IMG/VR virus record: IMGVR_UViG_3300027796_000297
Span: 1 to 24,933 of that record
DNA length: 24,933 bases
Direction: 5' to 3' (one strand)
Source: a virus
The notes beneath the pieces are model-generated. The model was given only the letters and a program-made list of their open reading frames with translations. It searched no databases and had not been told where the DNA came from. The translations under genes were made by a program, and so were the position numbers. How positions within the stretch are numbered: position 1 is the stretch's first letter; each line of letters begins with the position of its first letter. Below are positions 4,465-24,504 of this stretch, piece after piece.

Positions 4465-4467
4465 GGT

Positions 4468-6171: not shown

Positions 6172-6185
6172 GGGGGCGTCCCTCC

Positions 6186-6554: not shown

Positions 6555-6566
6555 GGGCGGCTGCTC

Positions 6567-6935: not shown

Positions 6936-6945
6936 GTCGTTTCCC

Positions 6946-7155
6946 CTAAACCAGATCCTGGAAACCCAGGAACAGGGCGTCTTCGATGGTGAGCAGGCGG
7001 CGGCGGGTCTCCGTCATGTCGGCGTCCACCATCGCCGTCGCGGTTCGCAGCCGGGCGACGTCGTCGCGCAGGCGGTTGTCGGGGTGGGGAAGCGGGTAGC
7101 CCCGCGTCGCCGACCGTTCGTCTTTGGGATCATCAGTCATCATGCCCCCGATCAT
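6946..7155 (-). CDS. Small charged helical protein
   Basis: Up to 69 aa are encoded. The start at ATG 7155 overlaps the stop of the previous gene as TGATG. ATG 7143 and ATG 7140 are alternatives, the latter with GGGGG four bases upstream. The C-terminal half is one helix (VARLRTATAMVDADMTETRR) ending in FLGFQDLV. No family is recognised. It is short and in the same operon as the baseplate and fibre genes, so a small tail-tip component or assembly factor is likely. Confidence 0.5.
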   Translation of the reverse strand: MIGGMMTDDPKDERSATRGYPLPHPDNRLRDDVARLRTATAMVDADMTETRRRLLTIEDALFLGFQDLV

Positions 7156-8354: not shown

Positions 8355-8366
8355 GGATCAATCCCC

Positions 8367-10310: not shown

Positions 10311-10320
10311 CGCGGTGTCC

Positions 10321-10803
10321 TTACAGCGTCAGCACCAGCTCGAAGCTCTGGCGGGTGGATGGGGAACGGGTGATCGCCGGGATGCGCTGCAAGGCCAGCA
10401 GCGTGCCGGCTTTCTCCAGCTCCGTCGGGGCGAAATAGGTTTGTCCGGGCGGCAGGCCGCTTTTCGGCGCGGCGCCGGAGAACACGCCCAATTCGCGGAT
10501 TTTCGCCGCGCTCGCGTCGGCGTATTCAAAGTTGAAGCGGACATAGAGGTGGTTGGACGGCTCCGCCGTCTCGCGGTAGCGCCCGGTCGGCACGTCAATT
10601 TCACCCGCCGGATCCGGCGTGCAATATTTCAGCGCCGAGACGGCGCGGCGTCCCAATTCGTTGACCAGCGCGGTGGCGGCGGTTGGTTCGGCTTCGGGGG
10701 CGGCGTCCCAGGCGCTGTCGCCGGTCCCCCACGCCAAATGAATCGGTTGAGCGGCGAGCGCGACGGCGATCGCCGTGCGTCCGCTGGTCGTCAGGATGGC
10801 CAT
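10321..10803 (-). CDS. Conserved phage tail/baseplate protein
   Basis: This 160-aa protein opens MAILTTSGRTAIAVALAAQP and continues IHLAWGTGDSAWD. It then has an NHLYVRFNFEYADASAAKIRELGVFSG stretch near 84-110. I recall such an opening followed by a RELGVF-type segment from small proteins of contractile-tail modules, but I do not know a named family. The position just before the DUF4815 gene suggests a baseplate or fibre-attachment role. GGGAG precedes the ATG by 9 nt. The gene starts after the largest gap in the tail run (78 bp), so it may have its own promoter. Confidence 0.6.
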   Translation of the reverse strand: MAILTTSGRTAIAVALAAQPIHLAWGTGDSAWDAAPEAEPTAATALVNELGRRAVSALKYCTPDPAGEIDVPTGRYRETAEPSNHLYVRFNFEYADASAAKIRELGVFSGAAPKSGLPPGQTYFAPTELEKAGTLLALQRIPAITRSPSTRQSFELVLTL

Positions 10804-10823
10804 GCAGGTCGTCTCCCAGAGTT

Positions 10824-10840
10824 GCGCCTGTGACAGGCGC
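10824..10840. repeat. 17-bp perfect palindrome in the 78-bp gap
   Basis: GCGCCTGTGACAGGCGC is fully symmetrical around a single G at 10832 and could form a 7-bp stem with a TGA loop. It lies between the 129-aa gene and the 160-aa gene, 20 bp upstream of the next start. No T-run follows on either strand, so an operator or an RNA hairpin near the ribosome site is more likely than a terminator. Confidence 0.55.
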
Positions 10841-10859
10841 GCCAGTCACGCGACCATGG

Positions 10860-10868
10860 CGTCACGAC
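10860..10868 (-). promoter_or_regulatory. GTCGTGACG element in the 10.84-kb gap
   Basis: On the - strand this reads CCCGTCGTGACGCC, sharing the GTCGTGACG core with the other gap elements. It has 4-bp dyad arms (CGTC/GACG) around GT. A second near copy, GTCGCGTGAC, follows a few bases downstream. The element lies 57 bp before the start of the 160-aa tail gene. Confidence 0.45.
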
Positions 10869-10881
10869 GGGCCGCCGTGCG

Positions 10882-11271
10882 TCACCATGTGATCGCGTCG
10901 AGGTCTTCAAGGGTCGCCGCCGCGTCCACCGCCGCCGTCAGCGCGGTCAGACGGTTGGCGATGGCGGCCAGGGCGTTGTCGAACTCCGTCTTCACGCCGG
11001 GAAGGCTCAGCGCGCCGGGCATGCCGGACAGGACGCTGGCGTGTCGCGCGTGCGCCCTCAGCCGCCGCGACGCCGCGACGGCGGCCATCGCCTTGCGCTT
11101 GCTCTCGCGGCCCTGGGCGAGCGGCGATCCGGCGGCGTCGGCGATCAGGTCGGGGGACGCCTGCGCGGCGTCGGAACAGGCCAGCAGCATGGCTTGCCCG
11201 TCGCGCAGGATCAGGAGCTTTTCATCGCCGGTCAGGCGGTCGGCGACTGGCAGGCTTGCAATCGAAATCAT
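10882..11271 (-). CDS. Small protein of the baseplate operon, function unknown
   Basis: This 129-aa protein starts with an ATGA overlap on the baseplate I-like gene. Residues 1-35 read like a short beta/alpha segment (ADRLTGDEKLLILRDGQAML). Residues ~45-75 are basic and helical (ESKRKAMAAVAASRRLRAHA), and the C-terminal ~35 residues form an Ala/Leu-rich helix (LAAIANRLTALTAAVDAAAT) likely to coil. It belongs to no family I recognise. The opening GDEKLLI...DG phrase occurs in several phage tail-fibre leader segments, so an adaptor role is possible. Confidence 0.55.
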   Translation of the reverse strand: MISIASLPVADRLTGDEKLLILRDGQAMLLACSDAAQASPDLIADAAGSPLAQGRESKRKAMAAVAASRRLRAHARHASVLSGMPGALSLPGVKTEFDNALAAIANRLTALTAAVDAAATLEDLDAITW

Positions 11272-12788
11272 AGGGTCCTCTCAATGCGCAAGGGCGCGCC
11301 GTCGGCGTCGGTGAATGGTTCGCCCGTTCCGCTGGCCAGCGTGTCCGGCGTCAGGCTGGTGACGCGCGGGCTGGAGAAATCCGGGCCGACGAAGGCGATG
11401 GCGCCCCAGCGGCGTTCGTCCCACCCCGCGACCCAGGCGTCGCCATACAGGGTGGGGACCGCCAGGGCGTGGGTGTCCTCCCAGCCGGTCGGGCTGTCGT
11501 TCCCGTCGTCGCGCGCGGCGGTCAGGAACCGGGTTTCCAGCCGGGCCAAACGGAAGGGGCCGGGGTAATCGGGCGCGGGGTTGGCGACCGGCAGGCGGTC
11601 CACCCGCCACTCCTCGACCGGCTCGGCGACCAGCCGCCAGAGGTGATCGGACAGGCGCGCCGAACCGGACGCCGTCAGCGGCGCGCCGCGTTCGACCCGG
11701 CGGCGGCCGGGCAGGCGCGCTTGCAGGCCGCCCAACGGCCCCTGGACGTTGAGGATGATTTCGCCCTTGCAGACCGTCCGCGTCGGTCGGAAACCCGCCG
11801 GATCCGGCAGGCCGTCCGCCTCGCCCGACCAATTGTCGAAGATGGCGAAGGCCGGGTTGCGGCGGACGAAGCCCGTCGACGGGCGGAAATTATACCCGAT
11901 GATCTGGCCGTCGGAATCCTGCACCCGCCCGGACCACAGATCATGGCGGGCCAACCCGGCGGCGACGCCCGCGTCGGCCACGACGCCGAAGGGCGGCGGA
12001 AGGGTGACGGGCGGCAGCAGCCGCGTTCCGGCGGGGCGGTCGGCCTCCGCCTCCCGCGTCACGGCGTCCCAATCCTCGAACCGGCGCGAAACCAGTTGAA
12101 GCGTGTGATAGCCGTATTCCCGACCGTCGGGCAGCTTGTCGCCGCCGCTCAGGCGGGACCGGCCCAGGGTCATCATTTCCCGCCAGGGTTCGCGCGTGTG
12201 AACCTCCGCCCCGGTGGCGCGGCGGATGTTGGCGCGCATCGCGGCGGGGTTGGAGCGGGGGCGGCGGGGTTCCTGGAGGATCCGTTCGGCGAAGGCCGCG
12301 TCCGCTTCGTCGGCGCGGCGGGCGACGCCGAAATAGCTCCCCCACAGATCCAGCCATTCGCCGTCCGCCGTGGGAACCGTCAGTTGGTTCAGCGCCTGCC
12401 CGATGTCGGCCTTCGCGCGGTCCAGCGCCCGCCCCACCGCGTCGGCCCAACTCCACAGGATGGAGCCATAGGCGTCGAGGCGGTCGCCGTCGCTGGCGTC
12501 CTGGTCGCCCGCGCCGGGCAGCAGCGCCAACGCCCCCAACCGTTCAAGCGCCGGGTCGGGCAGGGCGACGGCGACGCCCGCCGCCGCCAGATGATTTCCC
12601 AACGCGGCGATGGTCAGGCCCGCCAGCGGCGTCGTCAGGTCGGGCTGTCCGGGGCGGGCGACGGTCAGGGCGTCGTCGGCGATCCGCCACCGCAACCCGC
12701 CGGGCGACCGCAGGCGCAAGGCGGGCGCGGCCTCCGGGGTTGGGTTGAAGACGCGGTGCAGCCGCGACAGAAGCCGGGTCCGCATCAT
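11268..12788 (-). CDS. Baseplate wedge protein, gpI/gp48-like
   Basis: The protein is 506 aa from ATG 12788, which overlaps the stop of baseplate J as TGATG and has GGAG 8 nt upstream; a GTG at 12797 would add three residues. The position directly after the J protein is that of tail protein I (P2) or gp48 (Mu). The segment ~100-200 supports this: LDAYGSILWSWADAVGRALDRA, then GEWLDLWGSYFGVARRADEADAAFAERILQE and NIRRATGAEVHTREPW, the usual wedge-protein phrase about one subunit's path and transitions. The remaining ~300 residues are beta-rich and longer than in P2 I (~176 aa) or Mu gp48, so it carries a large extra C-terminal domain (YNFRPSTGFVRRNPAFAIFD). Confidence 0.7.
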   Translation of the reverse strand: MMRTRLLSRLHRVFNPTPEAAPALRLRSPGGLRWRIADDALTVARPGQPDLTTPLAGLTIAALGNHLAAAGVAVALPDPALERLGALALLPGAGDQDASDGDRLDAYGSILWSWADAVGRALDRAKADIGQALNQLTVPTADGEWLDLWGSYFGVARRADEADAAFAERILQEPRRPRSNPAAMRANIRRATGAEVHTREPWREMMTLGRSRLSGGDKLPDGREYGYHTLQLVSRRFEDWDAVTREAEADRPAGTRLLPPVTLPPPFGVVADAGVAAGLARHDLWSGRVQDSDGQIIGYNFRPSTGFVRRNPAFAIFDNWSGEADGLPDPAGFRPTRTVCKGEIILNVQGPLGGLQARLPGRRRVERGAPLTASGSARLSDHLWRLVAEPVEEWRVDRLPVANPAPDYPGPFRLARLETRFLTAARDDGNDSPTGWEDTHALAVPTLYGDAWVAGWDERRWGAIAFVGPDFSSPRVTSLTPDTLASGTGEPFTDADGAPLRIERTL

Positions 12789-13891
12789 CAGACCCACTCC
12801 ACCAGGATGGCGCCGGGAACCAGAACCGCGCTCGCGGGGCAGGGGACGGACAGGGTGGGTTGCGCGATCTCCGCCCCTTGAATCTCGGCGAGCGCCAGCG
12901 TGGCGTTGACCAGATCCAGGGGGCGCAGCTCGCCGCCGCTGCGGGTGGCGCGGATGACGCGCGACAGCGCCGCCGCCACCTGCCCGCGCGTCTCCTCGGT
13001 CTGGCGCAGCGCCGGGACCTGCGCCCGGATGGCGACGGCGACCGGGATTTCCGTCATCGCTTCGACGTCCACCCGCATCCCCGCCGGACGGTATCCCGGG
13101 GTGATCGTCCCGGTCGCGGGATCCTCGCCGCCCTCAATCCGGTCCGTCACCGCTTGCACAAGCTGGGCGGAGGTGGCGCCCGCCCCGTTGTGGACGTAGA
13201 GCCGGACATGGCCCGGCCCTTCGCGCACCGCCACCCGCGCGACGCGCTCCAGCGTCGTGGCGCCGGTCGGGTCGGTCACTTTGGCCGCCTTGGCGGCGAA
13301 GATCAGCGATCCGACGGTGCCGCGCGCCAGGCTTTGGATGAATTCGGCGAAGCGCAGCTTGCGCTCCGCCTCCGTCTCCGCGCCGCGCCCGTTGCTCAGC
13401 GCGGCGGGGTTGGTGACGGCGGAAACCCCGCTGATCGGCGAAATCAGCCGGGTGACGGCGTCGGGCAGGGCGTTGCCCCCGCTTCCCGGCGCGACCGCCG
13501 ACACCAGCACCTCGACGCTGGTCTGGCCGACGGCGATGACGGCGGCCTCGACCGTGCGGTATTCGACGGCGCTGTCGCTGGCCACCCGAACCCCGACCGG
13601 CAGAACCACCGTGTCGGCGTGACCGGCGGGGGCGGAAAAGCGCGCCAGACCCGACGCGGCGACGGCGGGCAGCAGCGGAAAATCGAAGGAGCGGTAGACC
13701 GCCGTCGGAATCCCCTCCACCAGCCCGGCCAGCATCTGCTGGTACAGCTCGTCGATTTCGACGGCGGGGGCCTCGATCATCGTGCGCGCGACCGAGCCGA
13801 CGTTGAAATCGGTGATCGCCCGCGACGTCGTCCGCATGTGGTTGACCATCCCGGCGACGATTGAAAGGAAGTCCTTAATTTGAAAGGGCAT
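12788..13891 (-). CDS. Baseplate J-like wedge protein
   Basis: This 367-aa protein fits the baseplate J/gp47 family in length and pattern: ITDFNVGSVARTMIEAPAVEIDELYQQML at ~26-55 (SxTR-type start), a beta region with GVRVASDSAVEYRTVE, SAVAPGSGGNALPDAV near 135-150, the conserved ISGVSAVTNPAALSNGRGAETEAE at ~155-177 and a C-terminal ferredoxin-like part with VAVAIRAQVPA. J forms the baseplate wedge with the gp25-like and I proteins. It overlaps the LysM-gp25 gene by 17 bp, with AGGA upstream of ATG 13891. Confidence 0.92.
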   Translation of the reverse strand: MPFQIKDFLSIVAGMVNHMRTTSRAITDFNVGSVARTMIEAPAVEIDELYQQMLAGLVEGIPTAVYRSFDFPLLPAVAASGLARFSAPAGHADTVVLPVGVRVASDSAVEYRTVEAAVIAVGQTSVEVLVSAVAPGSGGNALPDAVTRLISPISGVSAVTNPAALSNGRGAETEAERKLRFAEFIQSLARGTVGSLIFAAKAAKVTDPTGATTLERVARVAVREGPGHVRLYVHNGAGATSAQLVQAVTDRIEGGEDPATGTITPGYRPAGMRVDVEAMTEIPVAVAIRAQVPALRQTEETRGQVAAALSRVIRATRSGGELRPLDLVNATLALAEIQGAEIAQPTLSVPCPASAVLVPGAILVEWV

Positions 13892-14510
13892 CGGTCATCC
13901 TCACGGGAACAGGGCGGCCATCGGCGGCGACCGCCGTGGCCTCCACGGACAGGGCGTCGCCGGTGACGGCGGCGGTCGCGTTGACGACGCGGGCGATCCG
14001 CCGGTCGGCGCGCAGCGCGCGCGCGACGAAGGCGGCGGCAAGCTGGTTGTTGACCGCGTCGCCGCCGCGCCCGATCAACGCGCGCGCCCGGCATCCGTAA
14101 CGCGGGTGGCGCGGCAAGGCGCCGGGATCAGTGGCGAGCGCGTGGCGCAGCGCCTGATTCAGATTGGCCACCCCGGCCACCAGCCGGAAATCGCCGCCAT
14201 CGGTCGCCGTGACGCGCCCGTTGGTCAAGGCGATGTCCTGACCGAACGGATCGTCGGCGTCGGTCACGCCCGCGCGCGCCAGGGCGGAGGCGGCGGGTGC
14301 GGGAATCTGGATCGGGTCGCCCGACAGCAGAACGCCCGGCCCGGCCTCGGCGGGGTCGTCGGTGACGTAGGGCGGGACAAGGCCGTTGATCTGCGCCAGA
14401 TCCGGCCAGCGGGCGGCGTCGCCCAACTCGCGTGCGGCGATGGTCGGCAGGCTGTCGCCAACGCGGGTTTCAACCCGGCGCCAGCCGGGAAGCGGTTTGG
14501 TCCAGCTCAT
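13875..14510 (-). CDS. LysM-gp25 fusion baseplate protein
   Basis: This 211-aa protein combines two tail modules. Residues ~14-70 are a LysM-like repeat (TRVGDSLPTIAARELGDAAR, WPDLAQINGL, ending at SGDPIQIPAP). Residues ~105-205 resemble the gp25/gpW wedge family (DFRLVAGVANLNQALRHALA, then HPRYGCRARALIGRGGD and strands with RVVNATAAVTGDALSVEATA). In many phages the LysM part (XkdP or gp53 type) and gp25 are separate. LysM in such particles usually holds hub and wedge together rather than binding cell walls. Joining them would fix the stoichiometry of clamp and wedge. The gene starts with an ATGA overlap on the 370-aa gene. Confidence 0.85.
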   Translation of the reverse strand: MSWTKPLPGWRRVETRVGDSLPTIAARELGDAARWPDLAQINGLVPPYVTDDPAEAGPGVLLSGDPIQIPAPAASALARAGVTDADDPFGQDIALTNGRVTATDGGDFRLVAGVANLNQALRHALATDPGALPRHPRYGCRARALIGRGGDAVNNQLAAAFVARALRADRRIARVVNATAAVTGDALSVEATAVAADGRPVPVRMTDALSN

Positions 14511-15619
14511 GGAAGGGTCGCTCCGGCGGCGAGCGCGGCGAGCGCGGCGGCGGCGGTCGTCGGCGTCAGGCCAAGGGGGTCGCGGCGCAGGGTGTCCAGC
14601 GCGTCGCGTCCGCTGGTGGACAGGGTCAGCCGGGCGGCGACCGGCGGAAACAGGCTGTGGAAGGGGTTGCTTCCCTCTTCGGCGAAGGTGGACCAGCCCC
14701 GCCCGCCGCCGGTGGACGAGCAGCTCGACGCGCCATACAGATCGTCATAGCTGGCGAATTGGCGGGACACGCCAAAGCCGTTGGCGAGGGTGCAAGCGAT
14801 GTCGTTCATCGTGCTGGCGGCGCGCATCAGAGCGCTTTTGACCGGGTTGGCGGATTGGACGCGGGCCAAGGCGCCGATGCCGTTGCGCGCCGCTTCGGCC
14901 AGCCGTTGGACCGTCTCCAGGAAGGGGGCGGTCAGGCGGTCGACGCCGCCCTCCACCGCGTCCACGGCGTCAAGCGCGCGTTGGGCGCAGCTCTGCATGA
15001 AGACGCAGATCTGCGTCACCGCGTCGGCGGCGTCGGCGTAGAGGCGCTGGACGTCGTCGATGATGACGCCGATTTCCGCCACCAGCTTTTCCAGCCCCAG
15101 CCGCGCCGCCATCCAACGCAGCGGATCGAACAGCGCGCCGGTGATGGCGTCGGGGGCGGAGGCGGGTTCGCCCTCGTCGTCGAGAACGGCCAGCTCGATC
15201 TTGTAGCGCATCAGCAGCGGCGAGGTTTTCGACCGTCGCAAGGTGAAGGATTTCGGCGCGACCAGGGCGGTGACGCGGTCCAGCGTGTCGGCGAAATACA
15301 GCGCGACGTCGTCGGGATCCTGCCCGCGCGCCGCCGCCAGGATGCGCCGGTCATGCCAGTCCTTGAACACCGTCGCGCGCAGCGTTTCAAACCGCCCCGC
15401 CCCGTCGCGCCAGCCGGTGTGACCCTCCAGCGTGATGGTGGAGACGTCCCGACCGGCGGTGTCCGCCCAGGCGCCGCCCAGCGTCGGTTGCACGGTCAGG
15501 CGCGAGGGTTCCTGACGATTCAGCTCCTCGGGACGGATGGCGAAGGTCCAGCTTGTCGCGGGACCGCCGCCGTCCAGATAGAAGCCGATCTTGCGGTGTT
15601 TTTGGGGTTCAGGTGCCAT
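14507..15619 (-). CDS. Tail/baseplate protein between spike and LysM-gp25
   Basis: This 370-aa protein has an N-terminal ~150-residue domain with FAIRPEELNRQEPSRLTVQP, GRDVSTITLEGHTGWR and a helix RFETLRATVFKDW. This layout reminds me of hub-proximal tail proteins that precede LysM modules in contractile phages. Residues ~165-290 are helical (LEKLVAEIGVIIDDVQRLYA, MQSCAQRALDAVDAVEGGVD, LIRA-like helices). The end is Ala/Leu-rich. A Cys/Ser/Gly-rich loop (YGASSCSSTGGGRG) is odd. Start ATG 15619 follows AGGA at 7 nt, which is part of the repeated gap element. I cannot assign a precise homologue; gp53-like or DNA-circularisation-like proteins are candidates. Confidence 0.55.
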   Translation of the reverse strand: MAPEPQKHRKIGFYLDGGGPATSWTFAIRPEELNRQEPSRLTVQPTLGGAWADTAGRDVSTITLEGHTGWRDGAGRFETLRATVFKDWHDRRILAAARGQDPDDVALYFADTLDRVTALVAPKSFTLRRSKTSPLLMRYKIELAVLDDEGEPASAPDAITGALFDPLRWMAARLGLEKLVAEIGVIIDDVQRLYADAADAVTQICVFMQSCAQRALDAVDAVEGGVDRLTAPFLETVQRLAEAARNGIGALARVQSANPVKSALMRAASTMNDIACTLANGFGVSRQFASYDDLYGASSCSSTGGGRGWSTFAEEGSNPFHSLFPPVAARLTLSTSGRDALDTLRRDPLGLTPTTAAAALAALAAGATLP

Positions 15620-15666: not shown

Positions 15667-16458
15667 TCACCCGGCCCCGACGCCGGTGTCGCCGCCCTGC
15701 GCGTCGGGGTGGGTGTGGGTCTTCAGCCCGACGCCGTCGGCTCTGACGTCGCCGTTGGCCACCGTCACGTCGCCCTGGATGGCGGCGGCGACGCCGTCGC
15801 CGCCCGACCCGGACAGGCCGCCCTGGTAGGTCAGCCGCCCGTTCACCGTCACCGCCCCGGTGAAGGTCGATTGCGGCGCCGCGACGGTCAGCGTCGGCGT
15901 GGTCAGGGTGACGGACTCCTCGGCCTCGATGGCGACGGTTCCGCCGGGGGCGACGGTCATCCTGAAGCCGGTCGTGGCCAGGGTGATGCGCGCCGGGCTG
16001 TTGGCGGGCGGGGTCCAGCCGCCCGCCGCCTTGCCCGCCAGATCCTCGTGATCGCCCGACCCGATGCGCAGATAGGCTCCGCCGGAATGGAAAATCTCCA
16101 CCGACCCGTCGGGCGCGATGGTCCAGCAGGTGCCGGACGGGTGGCGCCGCACCTCGCGATTCTGTTCGGTGAAGCCGATTTCCCCGGCCAGCGGGTTGAC
16201 CCAACCGACGACGACCGGCGTCCCGTCGAGAAAGCCGCACAGCGCCAGCAGGCTGCGCCCGTTGCGGCTGTAACCGCCCGCGTCGGCCTCGCTGGCCGGG
16301 CGGGGCACGTCGGGAACGTCCCAGCTTCCGCTGTCGGAACTGGCGGTTCCGGCGGCGACCAGCGCGTTGGCGACCCGCCAACCATCGTCGAGAAACACCA
16401 GATCGACGCGGCGGCGGGACGGGTGAACGGCGACCACCTGGGCGACGCGCAGGGTCAT
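15667..16458 (-). CDS. Baseplate spike protein, gpV/gp45-like
   Basis: This 263-aa protein has an N-terminal OB-fold-like region (RVAQVVAVHPSRRRVDLVFL) and a middle with GRSLLALCGFLDGTPVVVGW. The segment YLRIGSGDHEDLAG is typical of the phage baseplate V family. The C-terminal part is a beta-helix of repeated strands (GTVAIEAEESVTLTTPTLTV; QSTFTGAVTVNGRLTYQGG). The end GVGLKTHTHPDAQGGDTG matches the His-rich, metal-binding tip of trimeric spikes (P2 gpV, Mu gp45). It would cap the tube below the hub and puncture the outer membrane. The start shows an ATGA overlap with the hub stop. Confidence 0.9.
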   Translation of the reverse strand: MTLRVAQVVAVHPSRRRVDLVFLDDGWRVANALVAAGTASSDSGSWDVPDVPRPASEADAGGYSRNGRSLLALCGFLDGTPVVVGWVNPLAGEIGFTEQNREVRRHPSGTCWTIAPDGSVEIFHSGGAYLRIGSGDHEDLAGKAAGGWTPPANSPARITLATTGFRMTVAPGGTVAIEAEESVTLTTPTLTVAAPQSTFTGAVTVNGRLTYQGGLSGSGGDGVAAAIQGDVTVANGDVRADGVGLKTHTHPDAQGGDTGVGAG

Positions 16459-17864
16459 CGGTAGGGTCCTCCAAGGAATTCGGCCCGATAGGGCAGGTCG
16501 GCGCGGCGGGAGCGCTCCAGAAATCCGGTGCAGCGGTCCAGGGTCAGGGCCGTGGTCCAGGCGCGCAAAGGCTTGATCGTGTGGGCGACGGTCGTGATGT
16601 AGCCCTCCATGGTCAGGCCGCCGCGCGTCAGCCGCAGGCGCCGCCCGATCTTCAGCGTCTCGCTGCCCTTGACCGTCGCGGTCACGGATTCAAAGACGCT
16701 GTTGTCCCGGTTCATGGCTTTGAGCTGTTCGGCGCGGGTCCGGCGCCACGCGATGTGGCGGTCGGCCAGGGCCATGCGCTCCGCCGCCGGGGCGGCGGTG
16801 GGGGAAAGGGCGATGATCGGGCCAAGCGCGGTGTCCCGCTTCATCGCCTTGCGCCCGTACAGCTCCAGCCGCGCGTTCGGGTGGTCGCGGTCGTCCAGGC
16901 CGGGGACGGTCTGTTGGTTGACGGCGTTGTTGGTCAGGGCGGCGGCCTGCCCCGGCGGCACGACGTACCAGTTGGCGACGTTCGCGTCGGCGCGCCGCGC
17001 CGACCAGGACGCCACGTCGTCGATCGACAGGGCGACCATGCCGGGATCGCGCGCGCCGGGCATGATGAAACGCCCGTCGACGTCCTTGTAGGGCGTGGGC
17101 CGGAAGCGGAGGACCGGGCCGCTTTCCTCATCCTCGACAAACAGCTCGTTCCAGGGGCGATCCACGAACGCGTTCAACAGGGTCCAAACCGATTCTTCGG
17201 TCGGGGCCGTCATGCCGGGGATCAGCGCGCCGTCCACCGCCCCGGCGTCCAGCCGGAAGGGGCGCAGCGTTTTGCCTTCCACGGCGAACAGGGCCTGGAT
17301 CGCCGGGTTGGCGACGCGGGTGATGATCGTCTCCATAAAGGAAACCACCGGCATGACCCGCGCGCCCATCCCGTCTTTGCTGCTCAGCATCAGTTCCGAC
17401 AGGATCGGTTCGCTTCCCGGTTGGCGCGATTGGGGGCGGGCGGCGGTGATCTGCAACAGCTTCGCGCAATCATGGCCCTGAATGGTGACGGCGCGGTTCA
17501 CCGCGCCATCCTCGCCCACGGATTCGGCGCGCTGCACCGAATCGATAAAGCCGCGCATCACCAGGGGAAGCGGGCCGTCGCCCGTCGGGGTTCGGCTGGC
17601 GCGGATTTCCACCAGATCCATCGGTTCGGCCAGAGCGTAAACGGTGTCCTGCCCGTCGCGGGACCGATCCGCGACGGTGATGGAAAAATTGCCGTTGCCG
17701 TCCAGCAGGGACGTGTTGACCGTGACGTCTCCGGCGGTTCCCAGATAAGGCGTCAGGTCCAGATCGCGGGCGGCGGCGGCGAAACGCTCCGCCACGCCGT
17801 TGCGGCGGGCCACCAGCTTGACGAGGCGAACTTGGACGCGCGGGGCGTGGGTGCGGACGGGCAT
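16455..17864 (-). CDS. Baseplate hub protein, gpD/gp44-like
   Basis: This protein is 469 aa from ATG 17864, which overlaps the previous stop as TGATG; GTG 17867 is an alternative. Its position before the spike, its length and a pattern of beta-barrel segments fit the hub family (P2 D, Mu gp44, T4 gp27). They include VNTSLLDGNGNFSITVADRS near 48-67, YALAEPMDLVEIRASRT, LPLVMRGFIDSVQRAESVGE and VTIQGHDCAKLLQI. The second half has TLLNAFVDRPWNELFVEDEE and VLRFRPTPYKDVDGR, then a C-terminal segment SETLKIGRRLRLTRGGLTME typical of hub barrels. It should form the trimeric hub between tube and spike. Confidence 0.8.
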   Translation of the reverse strand: MPVRTHAPRVQVRLVKLVARRNGVAERFAAAARDLDLTPYLGTAGDVTVNTSLLDGNGNFSITVADRSRDGQDTVYALAEPMDLVEIRASRTPTGDGPLPLVMRGFIDSVQRAESVGEDGAVNRAVTIQGHDCAKLLQITAARPQSRQPGSEPILSELMLSSKDGMGARVMPVVSFMETIITRVANPAIQALFAVEGKTLRPFRLDAGAVDGALIPGMTAPTEESVWTLLNAFVDRPWNELFVEDEESGPVLRFRPTPYKDVDGRFIMPGARDPGMVALSIDDVASWSARRADANVANWYVVPPGQAAALTNNAVNQQTVPGLDDRDHPNARLELYGRKAMKRDTALGPIIALSPTAAPAAERMALADRHIAWRRTRAEQLKAMNRDNSVFESVTATVKGSETLKIGRRLRLTRGGLTMEGYITTVAHTIKPLRAWTTALTLDRCTGFLERSRRADLPYRAEFLGGPYR

Positions 17865-19723
17865 CACGCCACCCCCCAGGGCTGCGGCGGGCGGATCGGG
17901 GCGACGGTTCGATGTTCCACGTTCAAAACCTCTCCATTCGGTCCTTCATGCACGATGCGCAGGGGATCAATCCTGAAAGACAGGTCCATGGCCGGTTGGG
18001 GCCGGATGTTGCGGTCGCCGCCGGGGATCGGCGTGCCGACCGGCGGCCCTTCCAGCCGGGGCGGGCTGGGCGCGTGGTCCTTCGGGGCGGACAGCGTTGG
18101 GGCGGCGAGCGTTGGGGCGCCCGCCCGCCCGATGGGCGCGGCGAATTGAGGGGCGCGGCTTGGGGAAGCAACACCTAAGGTTGATGCCGATGCAACAGTT
18201 GTATCGCTATACGGGATGGCGCCGGACAGCGGACCGGAACGCGCGGCTTGGTCGGGGGCGGGCGGCGGCTGTCGCGTCGTTGGAAGCAGGGCGGGCGGCG
18301 GGAGAAGGGCGGGCGCGGGGCCGCCCTCCTCCCGGTCACTCCCCTCGGAACGCGCCGGGGCAGGGCCAAGCCGCCATCCGCCGTCGCCGGGCGTCGTCGG
18401 GCTGTCGGCGACCGGCGCGCGTCCCTCCGCGTGGCTCAGAAGGGAGGCGTCCGGGCGGGGGGAGGGGAGGGCGCCGACGCCGCGCGTCGGCGACGACCAA
18501 GCGTCCGGCAGGGTCAAGAACGGGGCGAGGGGCGCGGCGACCGGACGCGTGATGGAATGAGCCACGCCCGCCGCCGCCCGCGCGCTTGACGGCGGCGGAA
18601 GCGCGGGCGTGAACGGCGGCGGCGCGGGCAGGGGCGGAAGCGGGGCCGCCGCGTGTCCCATCTCCGGCTTGACCGGAGAGGGGAGGGCGGGCGACTGGCT
18701 GACGCCGCCCCCGGATCGGACGCCCGCCGTTCCGGTTGGGTCCGGGGTGGAGAGGGCAGGGGGGGCCGACCAGGGCGCGGCGCCGCCGACGGTCGCCGGT
18801 TCCCGTGGGGCGACCCCGCCCGCGCCGAACGGGCTGGCGTCACGGCGGCCCGCCTCCGCGTGGGGTGTGACCGCACCGATCCGCCCGATGACGGGGGCGG
18901 GGGTGGCGGGAAGGGCAGGGGGGAGCGGGATCGGCGCGGGATGACGCGGGTCGTCGTCGGATCGGCGCGGCGGCGCGTCGATTGGCGGCGCCTCCATCGG
19001 GCGCGAACGGGTCGGGGCGGGGCGCTCAGGCGGGGCGGGAACGGGCGTCGTCCCGCCCTCCCCCGCCGCTTGCGCCGTGGGAATCGCCGGAGTCGTCGGC
19101 GAAGCCGCCCGCTCCCGGTCCAGCGGGGCCGGGTGGCCGGGCGCGCCGTCGCCGCCGATGGGCGCGAGGGTCACGCCCGCCTGTTGGCCCATCGGTTGGT
19201 TTGCGGCGGCTTCAAGCCCGCTCGCGGGCGACGTCGGCGGGAACGGCGCGTCGTCCGGCGGGGCGTCCGCCGTCCGGCGGGCGGGCGGGGGCGGGGGCGC
19301 GGCGGGAACGGGGGTCAGGCCCGGTTCCTGCGGCGGCGCGGCGTGGCGGCTTCCCCGCAGGATGTGGCCGCCCACGCGGACCAGATGCCGCCGCCGGGCC
19401 TCGTCGTCGGGGAAGGCCGCCGCGTGGCGGTCGTGCCAGATCAACCAGTCCGCCGCGTCGATGGCGCGCAGGGCGGCGGCGGTTCCGCCGGGGCGCAGCC
19501 GCCGCAGCGCCTCATACTGGTCTTGCAGGCGGGGCAGGTCCGCCGCGACGTCTTGCAGGGCGGGGTGGGTCGGATCCAGGTCGGACAGGGCTTTGCCGTC
19601 CTGGCCGGACTGGCGGATGGCGGAGCGGACGCGGTCGAGGGCGGCGGCGACGCCCTCGGCGTCCAGGGACATCGGAAAAAGATCGGACACGGCGGTGGCC
19701 CATGCGGTGAGGCTATGGGCCAT
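17864..19723 (-). CDS. Pro/Ala-rich protein in the tape-measure position
   Basis: The protein is 619 aa from ATG 19723 (MAHSLTAWATAVSDLFPMSL). It lies exactly where contractile tails encode the tape-measure protein, between the chaperone pair and the hub. Yet residues ~130-570 are low-complexity Pro, Ala, Gly, Arg and Ser (for example PVPAAPPPPPARRTADAPP), about 30% Pro in a stretch I counted, with no coiled coil and no hydrophobic segment. Only the first ~125 residues (helical, AALDRVRSAIRQSGQDGKAL to DWLIWHDRHAAAFPDDEARR) and the last ~45 (DLSFRIDPLRIVHEGPNGEV) look ordered. A tape measure is normally helical, so this is either an unusual extended one or a different protein. A Met 15 residues upstream would read through the repeats and is not preferred. 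Confidence 0.7.
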   Translation of the reverse strand: MAHSLTAWATAVSDLFPMSLDAEGVAAALDRVRSAIRQSGQDGKALSDLDPTHPALQDVAADLPRLQDQYEALRRLRPGGTAAALRAIDAADWLIWHDRHAAAFPDDEARRRHLVRVGGHILRGSRHAAPPQEPGLTPVPAAPPPPPARRTADAPPDDAPFPPTSPASGLEAAANQPMGQQAGVTLAPIGGDGAPGHPAPLDRERAASPTTPAIPTAQAAGEGGTTPVPAPPERPAPTRSRPMEAPPIDAPPRRSDDDPRHPAPIPLPPALPATPAPVIGRIGAVTPHAEAGRRDASPFGAGGVAPREPATVGGAAPWSAPPALSTPDPTGTAGVRSGGGVSQSPALPSPVKPEMGHAAAPLPPLPAPPPFTPALPPPSSARAAAGVAHSITRPVAAPLAPFLTLPDAWSSPTRGVGALPSPRPDASLLSHAEGRAPVADSPTTPGDGGWRLGPAPARSEGSDREEGGPAPALLPPPALLPTTRQPPPAPDQAARSGPLSGAIPYSDTTVASASTLGVASPSRAPQFAAPIGRAGAPTLAAPTLSAPKDHAPSPPRLEGPPVGTPIPGGDRNIRPQPAMDLSFRIDPLRIVHEGPNGEVLNVEHRTVAPIRPPQPWGVA

Positions 19724-19727
19724 CCTG

Positions 19728-19737
19728 CCGTCACGAC
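19728..19737 (-). promoter_or_regulatory. GTCGTGACGG element before the Pro-rich gene
   Basis: On the - strand CCGTCGTGACGG forms a perfect 5-bp dyad around GT, the most symmetrical copy. GTCGTGACGGCAGGATG continues into the start codon of the Pro-rich gene, identical to the 15.63-kb copy over 17 bases. The ATG follows AGG directly, so ribosome-site spacing is poor here. Confidence 0.5.
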
Positions 19738-19747
19738 GGGGGCGCCG

Positions 19748-19786
19748 CCGATCATTCGGGCCGATCATTTGCGCCGATCATTCGTA
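19748..19786. repeat. Three tandem 13-bp repeats
   Basis: CCGATCATT recurs at 19748, 19761 and 19774 with an exact 13-bp period; the units are CCGATCATTCGGG, CCGATCATTTGCG and CCGATCATTCGTA. The array fills most of the 54-bp gap before the Pro-rich gene, and its third unit overlaps the last codons and stop of the chaperone frame. Such phased repeats behave as regulator or iteron sites elsewhere. A slipped duplication of the gene end is the simple alternative. Confidence 0.75.
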
Positions 19787-20110
19787 ATGGTCGGCGGCGA
19801 TCTCGTCCCATCCGTCGGACCCGTCGTCGCCGTCCGCCGCCGCCGCCCGCTCCAACGCCGCGATTTCGGCGTCGAAATCGGGGTTGACGACCTCGTCCTT
19901 CAACCGGGGATCATCCAGGAAACGATGCGCCCACCAGTCGATCAGCATGTCGTCCTGGCCGGTGTCGAGGAAACGCGGGTCGGTGGGCGACAGATTGTAG
20001 CGGCGGCGGAAATGGAACTCGACGGTTTCGCTGAGTTCCAATCCCCAGGCCCGCGCGTTACGGCTGAGACGTTCGGCGAAAGGTCTCCTCCTCGTCGAGG
20101 AGCCTCCCAT
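19778..20110 (-). CDS. Tail assembly chaperone, frameshift extension
   Basis: This frame is open for 110 codons from ATG 20110, but that ATG has only AAGG at 3 nt and the first 11 codons overlap the upstream chaperone ORF in another frame. I read it as the extension of the 106-aa protein through a +1 shift at ACC_TTT_C (20078-20084). That would give a ~199-aa fusion joining at Phe100 to AERLSRNARAWGLELSETVE. The frame continues VEFHFRRRYNLSPTDPRFLD and MLIDWWAHRFLDDP, with an acidic end (DGDDGSDGWDEIAADHYE). Tail chaperones made by frameshifting (lambda G/GT, P2 E/E', Mu 41/42) recruit the tape measure and tube subunits. Independent initiation at 20110 remains possible. Confidence 0.65.
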   Translation of the reverse strand: MGGSSTRRRPFAERLSRNARAWGLELSETVEFHFRRRYNLSPTDPRFLDTGQDDMLIDWWAHRFLDDPRLKDEVVNPDFDAEIAALERAAAADGDDGSDGWDEIAADHYE

Positions 20111-20378
20111 GCACCTTGTAGAGGGTGGCGACGTCGTCGGCGTCGAGCGGGTCGAGCGTTTCGACGTTCCAATCCCGGCTGGGGCCGGACACCATCAGAA
20201 CGCCGATGGTCGCCATCGCGGCGGCGCTGTTCCACAGCGTCGCGTCGTTGACCGGCCCGCCCAGGATGCGCGTCGTTTCGGCGTGGATGCGGAACTGGTC
20301 GCGCATGATCCGGCGTCGGAACACAAAGTCGCCGACGCCGTCCACGCTGACCGGATAGCTGCGGTCAGGGTTGCTCAT
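20058..20378 (-). CDS. Tail assembly chaperone, short form
   Basis: This 106-aa protein starts with a TGATG overlap on the tail-tube gene. Residues include FRRRIMRDQFRIHAETTRIL and the helical segment NDATLWNSAAAMATIGVLMV, ending DPLDADDVATLYKVHGRLLDEEETFRR. This is the position and size of the short chaperone (G-type) in contractile and siphovirus tails. Its last seven codons overlap the following frame, which lies +1 relative to it. ACC TTT CGC at codons 99-101 is the likely slip site, because the same Phe tRNA reads TTT and TTC. Confidence 0.75.
   Translation of the reverse strand: MSNPDRSYPVSVDGVGDFVFRRRIMRDQFRIHAETTRILGGPVNDATLWNSAAAMATIGVLMVSGPSRDWNVETLDPLDADDVATLYKVHGRLLDEEETFRRTSQP
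20078..20084 (-). other. Candidate +1 frameshift site ACC_TTT_C
   Basis: In the 53-bp overlap of the two chaperone frames the - strand reads ACC TTT CGC CGA in the first frame. A one-base forward slip of tRNA-Phe from TTT to TTC puts the ribosome on GCC GAA CGT of the second frame. The site resembles the UCC_UUU_CGU +1 site of influenza PA-X. TTT is a rare Phe codon in such GC-rich genes. A -2 shift, as in Mu, would give the same frame. Confidence 0.5.
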
Positions 20379-20800
20379 CAGAGGCTGGTCCCCACGACGT
20401 CCAGGGCCTTCAGGGTGGCGGTCTGCGCGACGATCTTGTTGGCGGTGATCGTCGTGTCGCCGCTTTCATAGGAACAGCCGATGTATTTGCGCAGAAGGCG
20501 GCCGCTGTCCTTGCTGTAGATGCACAGGTCGAACACCAGACCGCGCAGGACGTCGTCGCCGTTCTGCGGGGCGACGCCGGCGTCGCGCATGTTGTGCCGC
20601 ATCATCACCAGGGCGCTGACGGTCAGGATGTGCGTGGCCTTGGTCGGTACATATTCCTGAACATGGATGTCGCCGATGCCGACGGCTTCCTCCATCGGGT
20701 AGCTGTCCGCCATTTTGACGGATTGGACGAGGCCGATCACCTTGCCGTCAAATTCGACGACGATCCGGTTGCCGGAATGGGTTTGCAAGTTCTCGCGCAT
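20378..20800 (-). CDS. Tail tube protein
   Basis: This 140-aa protein lies directly after the sheath. It fits T4 gp19-like tube proteins: NRIVVEFDGKVIGLVQSVKM at ~11-30, then YPMEEAVGIGDIHVQEYVPT, HILTVSALVMMRHN and a beta-rich second half (VFDLCIYSKDSGRLLRKYIG; SYESGDTTITANKIVAQTA). Tube subunits of this type stack as hexamers inside the sheath. The sequence AAGAAGGAC before the ATG acts as the ribosome site in the 15-bp gap after the sheath stop. The next gene starts in its stop codon (TGATG). Confidence 0.85.
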   Translation of the reverse strand: MRENLQTHSGNRIVVEFDGKVIGLVQSVKMADSYPMEEAVGIGDIHVQEYVPTKATHILTVSALVMMRHNMRDAGVAPQNGDDVLRGLVFDLCIYSKDSGRLLRKYIGCSYESGDTTITANKIVAQTATLKALDVVGTSL

Positions 20801-20815: not shown

Positions 20816-22546
20816 TTACGCGGCGGCGGCGGCGGCGGCGGCGGCGCCGGAATAGGGCACGACCGCGATGGACACAGGGATGAAATTGACGGGGACCACC
20901 GGCGAGCATTGGAACTGCACGCGCAGCACGTCGCCGTCCAGGGTGGCGGCGATTCCCTTGTAAGCCGGGTTGGCCGCGTCGCCGACGATGACGCCCGGCC
21001 CCTGCGGTTCCGGCCGCGCCAGCTCGCGCAGGGTGGTTTCGGCGATCGACACCGCGCGGGACAGCAGGATCGGCGACCCCTTGGCCCCGCGCAGAACGTC
21101 CAGCGCGTTGCGGACGTTGCGGGCGACGAAATCGGCGGCCACGCCGGTGGACACCTCGACCCGGTTGTAATTGTCGTTCACCAGCCAGGTGGACACCGAC
21201 CGGACCACCTTGAAGCCCGACGGCGTGTCCTCCAGGCACAGGACCCCGGCCTGGATCAGGTCGTCGGTGTCGGTCGGGTTGCGCGGGGTGAACTCCAGCC
21301 CCCGGATCTTCAGGCTTTTGTTGGTCAGCGGCGTGCCGGGGTTGGCCCCGGCGAAGGCCGCCGCGACGATGGCGGCGGTCATGTAGGGCGCGCGCAGAAC
21401 CCGCTTGCCAGCCGCGTCATAGGCGTAATGGCCGGGCCAAACCAGGCTGGTCCGGTCGCTGTTCAGCGCCTTGGGCAGGGTTTGCACCAGGGACAGGCTG
21501 GTGTTGGCGGCGGGGCCGACCAGGCAGCGGCGCTCCATGCGGGCGACGGCGCTCATGTAGGCGCAATGGGCGTCCGCCGCCGCGTGAATCGCCGGATCGC
21601 CGGTCAAGGGCACGATCCATTGGGCGTCGGCGGATTGAAGAACGGCGATGGCGTCGGTCCAATCGGCCATGGTCGGGGCCGGGCTGACGCCGCCGCTCAG
21701 ATAGGTCCAGGGGATGTTGGCCGGGACCGCGCCGACGCCGGGCGGGCGGGTGGCCGTGACATAACCCTCCGCCGTCGAATTCAGCCAATCGACGATGGCC
21801 TGAAGATGGGCGGTGACGGTGACGGGGGCGGATTGGACGTTCTGCGCGGCGAGGCTGTCCAGCCCGTTCAGGGCCGGGCGGTCTTCGGAGCCGGGGACGG
21901 CGGCGGCGGCGAAACCGGGCGTCGCGCCGACGCGGTCGGCAAGCTGGCCAACCGTCAGCCCGTCGGTCAGCTCGATCACCGTGGCCACGCCGTCCACCGT
22001 CAGCGTCACCGCCGCCGGGGCGACGGCCAGCGTCGCCGCCGCGCCCGCGCCGTTGTAACGCACGGTCAGGGCGTCGCGGGCGATGTTGTCGGCGCTGCGG
22101 TAGTCGTCGCCGATCTGGGTGGTGACTTTCTTGCCCTTGGCGGATCCGGCCTCGATCTTGACCTTGATCCGGTTGGCGCCTTGGCCGTAATCGTCGGACA
22201 GCAGGGTGACGACCGTGGCGTCGGCGGCGTCCTTCAGCGCCAGGGCCGCTTGCGTGGCCTGGCCGACGCGCACCGCCACCACCGTCGATGGGGCGTTGGT
22301 TTCCGCCGACGGGTCAAAGGCCGCCAGCACGGCGTCCAGCAGCTCGCCGCCGCGCAAGCTGGCCCGCGCCTCGTCGGGGGCGCCGAATTTCAGGACGGCG
22401 TTGGGCTGGCCGCCGTCGGCCTTGCCGACCAGGGCCAGAATGTTGCCGACCGTCAGCCCCTTGGGCTGCATGGCGGTGTCGTCGATGGTGGACATGGTGG
22501 CCGGCGTGGTCCACAGCCGACCGGAGAAAAACAAACGCGAAGCCAT
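20816..22546 (-). CDS. Contractile tail sheath protein
   Basis: This 576-aa protein is a tail sheath subunit. The C-terminal conserved region is clear: GFKVVRSVSTWL at ~444-455, NRVEVSTGVAADFVARNVRN at ~460-479, and the final VQFQCSPVVPVNFIPVSIAV. The middle contains YMSAVARMERRCLVGPAANT and LVWPGHYAY, usual in sheath domain II. The N-terminus, GLTVGNILALVGKADGGQPN, is followed by a glycine/alanine-rich insertion of ~150 residues (TVRYNGAGAAATLAVAPA), probably an outer decoration domain. The protein ends in nine alanines. GGGAGG precedes ATG 22546 by 8 nt. Its presence shows that the tail is contractile. Confidence 0.93.
   Translation of the reverse strand: MASRLFFSGRLWTTPATMSTIDDTAMQPKGLTVGNILALVGKADGGQPNAVLKFGAPDEARASLRGGELLDAVLAAFDPSAETNAPSTVVAVRVGQATQAALALKDAADATVVTLLSDDYGQGANRIKVKIEAGSAKGKKVTTQIGDDYRSADNIARDALTVRYNGAGAAATLAVAPAAVTLTVDGVATVIELTDGLTVGQLADRVGATPGFAAAAVPGSEDRPALNGLDSLAAQNVQSAPVTVTAHLQAIVDWLNSTAEGYVTATRPPGVGAVPANIPWTYLSGGVSPAPTMADWTDAIAVLQSADAQWIVPLTGDPAIHAAADAHCAYMSAVARMERRCLVGPAANTSLSLVQTLPKALNSDRTSLVWPGHYAYDAAGKRVLRAPYMTAAIVAAAFAGANPGTPLTNKSLKIRGLEFTPRNPTDTDDLIQAGVLCLEDTPSGFKVVRSVSTWLVNDNYNRVEVSTGVAADFVARNVRNALDVLRGAKGSPILLSRAVSIAETTLRELARPEPQGPGVIVGDAANPAYKGIAATLDGDVLRVQFQCSPVVPVNFIPVSIAVVPYSGAAAAAAAAA
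20819..20845 (-). repeat. Trinucleotide GCC repeat coding for the poly-Ala end of the sheath
   Basis: Nine consecutive Ala codons (one GCG, eight GCC) precede the sheath stop at 20816-20818. The tract is a perfect triplet microsatellite for 24 bp. Length changes would keep the frame and only alter the number of terminal alanines, so it is more a slippage product than a switch. Confidence 0.85.
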
Positions 22547-22562: not shown

Positions 22563-22781
22563 TTAGACCGGACGCGCCGCGAAGGCGGCGAGACGGTTGC
22601 TGTAATTGCCTTCCAGATCGACGCGGCGTCCGGCGGACTCCTCGTCCTGGTGGAAGGCGGCGATCAGCTCGACGCGCTTGTCCGTCGCCGAAAAGCGCGC
22701 GCAAAATTCGTCCAGAGTGACGGGGTATTCCGACGCTTCGGCCCCAGCCGCAGCGGTTTTCGTGGTGTCGGTCTTGGCCAT
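22563..22781 (-). CDS. Small protein before the sheath gene
   Basis: This 72-aa protein starts with a TGATG overlap on the terminator-like gene. It has a short Thr/Ala-rich start (MAKTDTTKTAAAGAEASEYP) and a core VTLDEFCARFSATDKRVELI, followed by HQDEESAGRRVDLEGNYSNR. The core looks like a compact helical domain. Small proteins in this place, between terminator and sheath, occur in several contractile phages without known function. The overlap and the 16-bp distance to the sheath, with its own ribosome site, support translation. Confidence 0.65.
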   Translation of the reverse strand: MAKTDTTKTAAAGAEASEYPVTLDEFCARFSATDKRVELIAAFHQDEESAGRRVDLEGNYSNRLAAFAARPV

Positions 22782-23659
22782 CAGGTTGGCTCCATGCCAG
22801 AGGTGAAAAGGGTCGCGTCAACGTCCGTGATCGCGCCGACCGCGTCGCTGACAAGGGTCGGGGCAAGACAGACGAAGCTGCCGGTGGTCAGGAACAGCGG
22901 CCCGTCGGCCCGCGTCAGATCCTCGCCGTCCAGTTGGGTGAAGTCGCAGGCGGACAGGCCATGCGCGGCGAAGACCGGCAGGTTGCCGACGACGACGCGG
23001 CGGATCGCCTGACGAAGCGCCGACCGTTCGTCGGCGTCCCGGCTGGCGCCGACGACGCTGATTTGAACCCGCGACAACCAGCCTTCCGATTCAATCCAAC
23101 CGTCCTCAGGCCACCCACCATCCGGCCAGCCGTCCTCCGGGGCGCGGCGGTCGGCGGCGGGAAGGTCGCCAAGGCCGCGTTCGGCGGGGGCGTCGCTGTC
23201 CAGACGGACCGACAGGCAGGGAAAGGCGATGGTCGGAACCGCCGCCAGCGAGGCCGCAATCACCGGGACCGCGCCGCTTGCCGGGGTCAGCGCGCCGCGC
23301 CCGACCTCCACCGCCAGCCCGGCGGCCAGACGGTCGCGCAGGATCGACGGCGCGTCCGGCCCTTCGCCGCGATAGGTCGCCGCCGCGACGCCGACCGCCG
23401 GGCCGGAGGCGGTCCAGCCCTCCCCCACCCGGTAATAGGCGCGGTAGACATAGGGGACGCCGTTGACCAGGCCCGCGTCGTCCAGCAGGGCGTTGTCGGC
23501 GCACTGGTCGGCGACCCGAACCGCGCCCGGATCGTCGGGGCCGGTGAAGGCGTCGGCGGTTCGCCGCAGCACGCGCCACCAGTCCGCCCCGCGTGGCGGG
23601 GTGATGACGAGGCGCAGGGCGTTGCCGATCGGCAGGGGGTGGATGTGCGTGATGCTCAT
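22781..23659 (-). CDS. Tail terminator-like protein with FnIII-like N-terminus
   Basis: This 292-aa protein lies just upstream of the small pre-sheath gene and the sheath. Residues ~13-95 resemble a fibronectin type III fold (LRLVITPPRGADWWRVLRRT, then DAGLVNGVPYVYRAYYRVGE). Residues ~100-160 and 195-290 look like the alpha/beta fold of terminator/completion proteins (ILRDRLAAGLAVEVG; VQISVVGASRDADERSALRQ; VVVGNLPVFAAHGLSACDFT). Between them sits a Gly-Trp-rich linker with GW at 177, 182, 187 and 193. It should cap the tube and sheath and set the joint with the head, but both the role and the fold are inferred. The start sits 14 bp after the GTCGTGACGG element. Confidence 0.6.
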   Translation of the reverse strand: MSITHIHPLPIGNALRLVITPPRGADWWRVLRRTADAFTGPDDPGAVRVADQCADNALLDDAGLVNGVPYVYRAYYRVGEGWTASGPAVGVAAATYRGEGPDAPSILRDRLAAGLAVEVGRGALTPASGAVPVIAASLAAVPTIAFPCLSVRLDSDAPAERGLGDLPAADRRAPEDGWPDGGWPEDGWIESEGWLSRVQISVVGASRDADERSALRQAIRRVVVGNLPVFAAHGLSACDFTQLDGEDLTRADGPLFLTTGSFVCLAPTLVSDAVGAITDVDATLFTSGMEPT

Positions 23660-23683: not shown

Positions 23684-23971
23684 TCAGCGGCGCGAGGCGA
23701 ACAGGCCGTCGGTCGGCGGATCGGCGGCGGGCCGGGCCTTGGTCGGCGCGGCGGCGCTCAGGCGCGGCAGAAACTCATACGGGTTGGCGGCGCTGCGGGC
23801 GGGGTTGGCGGCGCAGCGATAGCCCTGGACCCCGCAGGCGCACAGCGCGGCGACCCGGCCCTTGGCCTCCACCCCGCACAGGGCGCAGCGGAACAGGCCC
23901 TCGCGCTCCAACACCCGCCCGATGCCGCAATGGCGGCAGCAATGCGGGGTCAAGGCCCAACCGCCGCTCAC
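23684..23971 (-). CDS. Small zinc-ribbon protein
   Basis: The protein is 95 aa from GTG 23971, overlapping the previous stop as GTGA. It carries CCRHC at 11-15, CALC at 29-32, CACG at 44-47 and C53, enough to bind two zinc ions. The pattern, with GVQGYRCAANPARSAANPYE after the last Cys, recalls conserved phage zinc-ribbon proteins of unknown function. The remainder is Pro/Ala-rich. Its place with a second zinc protein at the head of a late operon fits a regulator, a thought strengthened by Ogr/Delta proteins of P2-like phages, but no Ogr sequence pattern is present. Confidence 0.6.
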   Translation of the reverse strand: MSGGWALTPHCCRHCGIGRVLEREGLFRCALCGVEAKGRVAALCACGVQGYRCAANPARSAANPYEFLPRLSAAAPTKARPAADPPTDGLFASRR

Positions 23972-24504
23972 AGCGCCAACTCCAACTGGCGGGGCGCCGT
24001 GTGGGCGGCGCGGGGGCGGGCCACCAGCGGCGCGGGCGGGCGGGAGAACAGCAGGGCGCCGGTGGCGGCCTTGCCCAGCGTCAGCATCGCTTCGGTCGCC
24101 CCGGTGACGCGGCGCAGGGTGTGGCGGAACAACAGCCCGTCGCGGACGATCAGCACCGTTTCATCATGCAGGACGGCGGTCAATTGCGGCACGCCGCCCT
24201 TGGCGTTGCGCCCCTTCAACACCTCGCGCTCGCGGTTGTAGCAGCTGACGCACAGGCGGCCCTGAATGATCCGCATGGCGCGCCGCCCGCAGCGGGGGCA
24301 GACGCGCTGAAGGGATTCGACGACGGCGGCGGTTTCCGCCTGCGGGCGTCCGGCGTGGGCGGCGCCGACCGGGCAGGCCCGACAATGCCAGCGGCCTTCC
24401 CACGGGTCGGGCCGTTTGCGCTCCGCCGCCCGCCAGGACGCGGCGCAGCTGTCGCGGGAAAGCGTCAAGGCGCGCCGGTCGCACCGGATCAGCGTCAGTT
24501 CCAT
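23968..24504 (-). CDS. Zinc-ribbon protein at the head of the tail operon
   Basis: This 178-aa protein contains CRACPVGAAHAG at 41-52 and a CPRC (69-72) to CVSC (85-88) ribbon followed by YNREREVLKGRNAKG. This phrase (a CPRCG...CVSCYNRERE type) is shared by conserved hypothetical proteins of phages, whose function I do not know. The C-terminal half contains TLGKAATGALLFSRPP and ends LELAL. As the first gene of the run it would be made with the late genes. GGGGCAGG lies just before ATG 24504. It could be a transcription factor for the operon, or an assembly protein; neither is shown. Confidence 0.6.
   Translation of the reverse strand: MELTLIRCDRRALTLSRDSCAASWRAAERKRPDPWEGRWHCRACPVGAAHAGRPQAETAAVVESLQRVCPRCGRRAMRIIQGRLCVSCYNREREVLKGRNAKGGVPQLTAVLHDETVLIVRDGLLFRHTLRRVTGATEAMLTLGKAATGALLFSRPPAPLVARPRAAHTAPRQLELAL

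Follow-up and report, generated by a model that had tools for sequence, protein, structure and literature searches.

A proline-rich tape-measure protein without a helical core, from what is most likely a headless contractile tail

Tape-measure proteins (TMPs) have been credited with three jobs, namely to measure the tail tube, to open the inner membrane so that DNA can pass, and to cut the cell wall. For the second of these, tape measures have been proposed to form a pore in the inner membrane (PMC8718954, PMC11948020). The described phages that are closest to the locus analyzed here are Bordetella PHB04, Pseudomonas Dolphis, Aeromonas ST4, and Morganella Mecenats66 (PHROG 669 type). In these complete phages, the slot between the tube and chaperone genes and the hub gene encodes a protein of 961–996 aa with a hydrophobic helical core and, usually, a muralytic domain. 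(The annotation of the slot protein in PHB04 and Dolphis is "internal virion protein with endolysin domain" or "lytic transglycosylase"; we found an SLT domain in the PHB04 protein, and those of Dolphis and ST4 are annotated as lytic transglycosylases.) The Mecenats66 protein has 996 aa and, as a helix with 0.15 nm per residue, it would extend for 149 nm, as compared with a measured tail length of 142.1 ± 3.7 nm (PMC9503643). Because the helix length fits the measured tail, we consider the slot protein to be the tape measure; the same argument has been applied to XM1 (PMC10457771).

Using alignments of the tube and sheath proteins, we collected over a hundred related loci, and we extracted the slot at 107 of them (71 distinct sequences). 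Most slot proteins are 800–1190 aa long and contain 2–6% proline, and they follow a common plan. An N-module of about 120 aa is followed by a long helical core of hydrophobic character and a muralytic domain, and a short C-module closes the protein. At two loci (L047:10470-11360 and L077:4734-5627), lysis-like genes are inserted between the tube/chaperone genes and the tape measure. We rejected the extra slot genes of relatives as separate tape measures, as the ones that we inspected look like lysis genes and none had a match to the TMP profile.

The stretch of DNA that we analyzed (the window) comes from IMG/VR as a fragment that comprises 24,933 bases. Its nearest phage relative is the 82-kb record IMGVR_UViG_3300004151_000007 (G002), whose map we treated as circular (the record stops inside a chaperone gene and resumes at the opposite end). 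A second close relative is the 29.7-kb record IMGVR_UViG_2884881887_000001 (L001). The window contains a complete set of contractile-tail genes, from the fibres through the sheath, and the TMP gene lies within this operon, between the chaperone ORFs and the hub gene:

3865..14510, minus strand: sheath initiator/gp25-like, baseplate J, gp48-like, baseplate wedge, and fibre genes
14507..15619, minus strand: tail-tube initiator, C-terminal half helical (PF23980; phage G002 has it too)
15667..16458, minus strand: spike protein (80% identical to G002)
16455..17867, minus strand: tail hub protein (PHROG tail match; 55% identical to G002; 4-base overlap with the TMP stop)
17864..19768, minus strand: core-less tape-measure protein in the slot (both ends orthologous to the slot proteins of G002 and L001)
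17867..17989, minus strand: C-module of the TMP, residues 594–634, beta hairpin (55–57% identical to the C-termini of L001 and G002)
17990..19327, minus strand: Pro/Ala-rich disordered linker of the TMP, residues 148–593, standing where relatives carry the helical core and the transglycosylase domain
19328..19672, minus strand: N-module of the TMP, residues 33–147, five-helix domain (AlphaFold2; family-profile match; 52–53% identical to G002 and L001)
19778..20110, minus strand: second tail-assembly-chaperone ORF (by position; 72% identical to G002)
20058..20378, minus strand: first tail-assembly-chaperone ORF (by position; 89.5% identical over 86 aa to G002, 75% to L001)
20378..20800, minus strand: tail tube protein (PHROG 985; 71% identical to G002)
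20816..22546, minus strand: tail sheath protein (PHROG 279, E = 4e-70; 81% identical to G002)
22781..23659, minus strand: tail-completion-like protein, orthologue of Dolphis gp15, the final structural gene, after which the head module is missing
23684..24504, minus strand: two Cys-rich proteins, which in G002 lie beyond the head module (47.4–48.3 kb); the head-deletion junction is here

The stop codon of the TMP gene is at 17864, and the protein has 634 aa if translation begins at the ATG at 19768 or 619 aa if it begins at the ATG at 19723. Because the homology to relatives begins only around residue 32, both starts are possible; the 619 residues given in a preliminary description of this DNA hold for the second start. 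That description reported a Pro/Ala-rich disordered protein in the tape-measure slot, with short ordered ends only and no hydrophobic segment, and the composition of the protein, its position between the chaperones and the hub, and its AlphaFold2 model all agree with this. In the model, residues 35–145 of the N-module form five helices (pLDDT ~90), the middle of the protein lacks secondary structure (pLDDT 30–50), and residues 603–620 form a beta hairpin (pLDDT ~77); our AlphaFold2 models were built on shallow alignments of 20–21 sequences. The Kyte-Doolittle 19-mer maximum is 1.03, versus 1.17 for G002 and a family median of 1.64. Neither a helical core nor a hydrophobic or membrane-active segment was found in the window TMP by AlphaFold2, frame comparison, or the Kyte-Doolittle scale. 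Profile searches had been proposed for the ends along with structure prediction: the TMP family profile matches the window at the two ends of this gene only, and the N-module aligns to canonical family positions 12–147. At the level of this profile, both end modules are homologous to those of the PHB04, Dolphis, ST4, and Mecenats66 proteins. The identities of the end modules to L001 and G002 (52–53% for the N-module and 55–57% for the C-module) resemble those of the hub (53–55%). Judged by sequence, the window gene is an orthologue of the family's tape measure that has been reduced to both ends and a linker.

The preliminary description had also raised the possibility that this is a different protein and that the tape measure has been lost or lies elsewhere. 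In favour of replacement of the tape measure by an unrelated Pro-rich gene, the whole protein (P0001) has no family matches in Pfam or PHROGs and no tblastn matches in phage genomes. A fold search of its model against a viral library gave no match better than E = 2.3. However, the ends (residues ~33–147 and ~594–634) are orthologues of the end pieces of the tape measures in this family, which contradicts the idea of a different protein. The loss concerns the helical core and the muralytic domain, the ends were kept, and no core turned up in any of the window's reading frames or elsewhere in the complete island of L001. The extra genes in the slots of some relatives, being lysis-like, do not point to a tape measure elsewhere either. 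Replacement of the tape measure thus seems very improbable. As another candidate for a replacement tape measure, we considered the tail-tube initiator (P0009), because its C-terminal half is helical, and we rejected it because its orthologue in G002 stands beside a full TMP.

The linker (residues 148–593, 446 aa) is 23.8% Pro and 18.4% Ala, and P, A, G, S, and R together account for 66% of it. (The figure of roughly 440 in the preliminary description is the length of the low-complexity region; 295 of the residues in this region are P, A, G, S, or R.) Pro-free runs within the linker never exceed 16 residues, and prolines this dense make a long helix impossible. Over the whole protein, the Pro content is 19%, as compared with 2–6% in most other slot proteins; the others above that range are L120 (7%), L001 (11%), and Rhodovastum (16%). 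The base composition of the linker is coding-like, with GC3 above GC1 and GC2, and the codon bias of the true frame (0.24) is the highest among the six, as compared with 0.65 for the N-module and 0.52 for the hub. We rejected the linker as a frame-shifted core: the family core had no matches in any of the six frames of the linker region, and the sole weak core match (8.5 bits) sits in the N-module. A transglycosylase domain was not found in the window slot protein either (Pfam, PHROGs, and six-frame comparison), whereas G002 and L001 each have one.

The 912-aa slot protein of G002 consists of the N-module, a Gly-rich linker, the core, a Pro-rich linker, the transglycosylase (PHROG 4067, E = 1.5e-13), another Pro-rich linker, and the C-module. 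Its model is all-helical from residue 177 to 606, a core of ~430 residues (pLDDT moderate, mostly 60–84), and terminates in the same hairpin as the window TMP. The ends of the two proteins are 53–57% identical, and only G002 retains the core, the transglycosylase, and a complete head module. The linkers of G002 total ~200 aa, so the 446-aa linker of the window has been expanded and is more than a leftover. The L001 slot protein (675 aa) has the N-module, a Pro-rich stretch, the transglycosylase (E = 9.6e-16), and the C-module, without the core. L001 and the window are both core-less, Pro-rich, and headless, but L001 retains the transglycosylase. The L001 protein appears to be an intermediate, with the core lost and the enzyme kept. 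The gene trees for the window, L001, and G002 conflict as to whether the headless pair are sisters, and both a single loss and two losses fit.

The head genes are missing at a defined place. In G002, an endolysin-holin-two Cys-rich cassette (45.8–48.3 kb) is followed by the head module (terminase to connectors, ~30 kb), the tail-completion gene (78.6 kb), and the tail. The tail-completion gene of the window, and likewise that of L001, directly adjoins the Cys-rich proteins, so the junction is identical. Queries for capsid, portal, terminase, protease, and connector proteins found nothing in the window or L001 and found all of them in G002, which served as a positive control. The window stops 430 bases beyond the junction genes; its headlessness holds for this fragment, the replicon may carry head genes elsewhere, and lysis genes would lie past the end of the window. 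L001 has flanking holin (PF11351), muramidase (PF11860), and Cro/C1-type repressor genes, then a host methyltransferase, and on the other side is a host chemotaxis receptor. L001 is a complete headless island between host genes, and its gene content has the anatomy of a tailocin. The Cys-rich pair itself (23684–24504), which sits between the lysis and structural genes, is conserved both in the phage and in the headless records; it has no family matches above the cut-off, and the two proteins are possibly regulators.

Tailocin tape measures that lack a helical core are not known to have been described. In R-type tailocins such as pyocins and BceTMilo, as in L001, genes for lysis and regulation accompany a contractile tail that has no head, but these tailocins descend from phage families other than the window's. 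BceTMilo carries an annotated tape measure gene (PMC5411513). Within the family studied here, the 134 tail loci other than those of the window and L001 all have the core (several of these loci share contigs), and 85 of them have a capsid gene in the stretch examined. The core-less records are thus exactly the two headless ones. When we queried with the N-module, baseplate J, and the hub, we obtained no further core-less records, and a 398-genome sample of the phylum contained, apart from the seed genome, no further relatives. The headless records number only two and have their deletion boundary in common, so the core and the head may have been lost together, in a single event. Overall, the window protein is probably the TMP of a contractile tail from a PHB04/Dolphis/Mecenats66-type myophage that has lost its head, most likely an alphaproteobacterial tailocin.

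The tail cluster adjoins parA and parB (window 1–1873, plus strand). The window's ParA is 48–50% identical to Azospirillum replicon proteins, and parAB are absent from G002 and L001. Thus, rather than a phage-plasmid, which we considered and rejected, the tail cluster probably adjoins the partition locus of a host replicon, and the host is probably an Azospirillum-like alphaproteobacterium. A megablast search of the whole window against plasmids gave no matches.

We read the window TMP as a tape measure that has been relieved of DNA delivery. The retained N- and C-modules would dock the protein at the two ends of the tail (at the hub and at the chaperones or terminator), and the linker would span the tube lumen between the docked modules. 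The core and the transglycosylase presumably serve mainly in DNA delivery, by filling the lumen, forming an inner-membrane channel, and cutting the wall. They would have become dispensable once the head was lost and there was no genome to inject, so the absence of head genes offers a plausible cause for the loss of the core. Contraction would release the chain from the tube, which, once open, would depolarise the target membrane. The chaperones are up to 89.5% identical to those of G002 despite the loss of the TMP core, their presumed client, which points to binding of the end modules that were kept.

How would the length of such a tail be set? One possibility, which we raise tentatively, is that the Pro-rich chain is itself the ruler: as a polyproline-II-like strand, with ~0.31 nm per residue, it would make tail length scale with the linker. 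Both anchoring ends are retained, the chaperones are conserved, and a long helix is precluded by the density of the prolines. Also, 446 × 0.31 nm gives 138 nm, which is near the ancestral 137–149 nm expected from 912–996 helical residues. However, this match may be due to chance, as the disordered parts of the L001 protein would give ~111 nm. A relative on the Rhodovastum atsumiense plasmid RHOApe (L003:3677-10948) poses another difficulty. Its slot protein, of 2423 aa, has a complete helical core; well over 1,000 Pro-rich residues come next, then a glycosidase-like domain (PF21277), and finally the C-module of the family. By the same sum, the tail would have to be longer several times over. 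That a functional tail has its length set by an end-anchored polyproline-like chain, with a switch from a helical to a non-helical ruler alongside head loss, is a rather doubtful proposal.

Rhodovastum is alphaproteobacterial and, like the window, combines long Pro-rich stretches with the C-module, but it keeps the core, the glycosidase-like domain, and a capsid gene on the plasmid. As this head-bearing element also has a very Pro-rich TMP, proline expansion alone is no mark of headlessness. The Rhodovastum sequence shows a tendency of the alphaproteobacterial branch to grow Pro-rich stretches in the slot protein.

Another explanation is that the protein is a cargo or plug that fills the lumen, and that the length of the tube is set by a terminator or by protein supply. 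We know of no terminator-based length control in this family. The linker lacks helical or membrane features, and the lumen of the mature Afp tube holds a toxin instead of the tape measure (PMC8718954). However, Pfam and PHROGs do not recognise a toxin or enzyme domain in the protein, and both the ends and the slot of a tape measure were retained, so we think this quite unlikely.

Finally, the gene could be a decaying remnant of a prophage that lost its head and then does not make a functional tail, with the core gone from its TMP and the linker under little constraint. Three observations go in this direction: the codon bias of the linker is weak, at about half that of neighbouring genes; the branches of the TMP modules are longer in the window (0.42–0.46 versus 0.20–0.29); and we found no conservation of sequence between the linkers of the window and L001. 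The weak codon bias and the longer branches would also fit relaxed constraint. On the other hand, the TMP gene runs for 1.9 kb without a stop or frameshift, the tail genes from the fibres to the sheath are intact and 50–81% conserved, the end modules and the chaperones were kept, and a second record retains the same gene set. Decay therefore seems unlikely.

Two features were missed by the preliminary description: the slot proteins of relatives are ordinary helical tape measures, and the element is without head genes. The core-less, Pro-rich protein amounts to a natural experiment on the requirements of a tape measure: an element without DNA to deliver has kept the ends of the protein but neither the membrane/helical part nor the part that cuts. 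Should tails still form, then the jobs of the tape measure have been separated, and it would be directly testable which part of the protein measures and whether a helix is needed.
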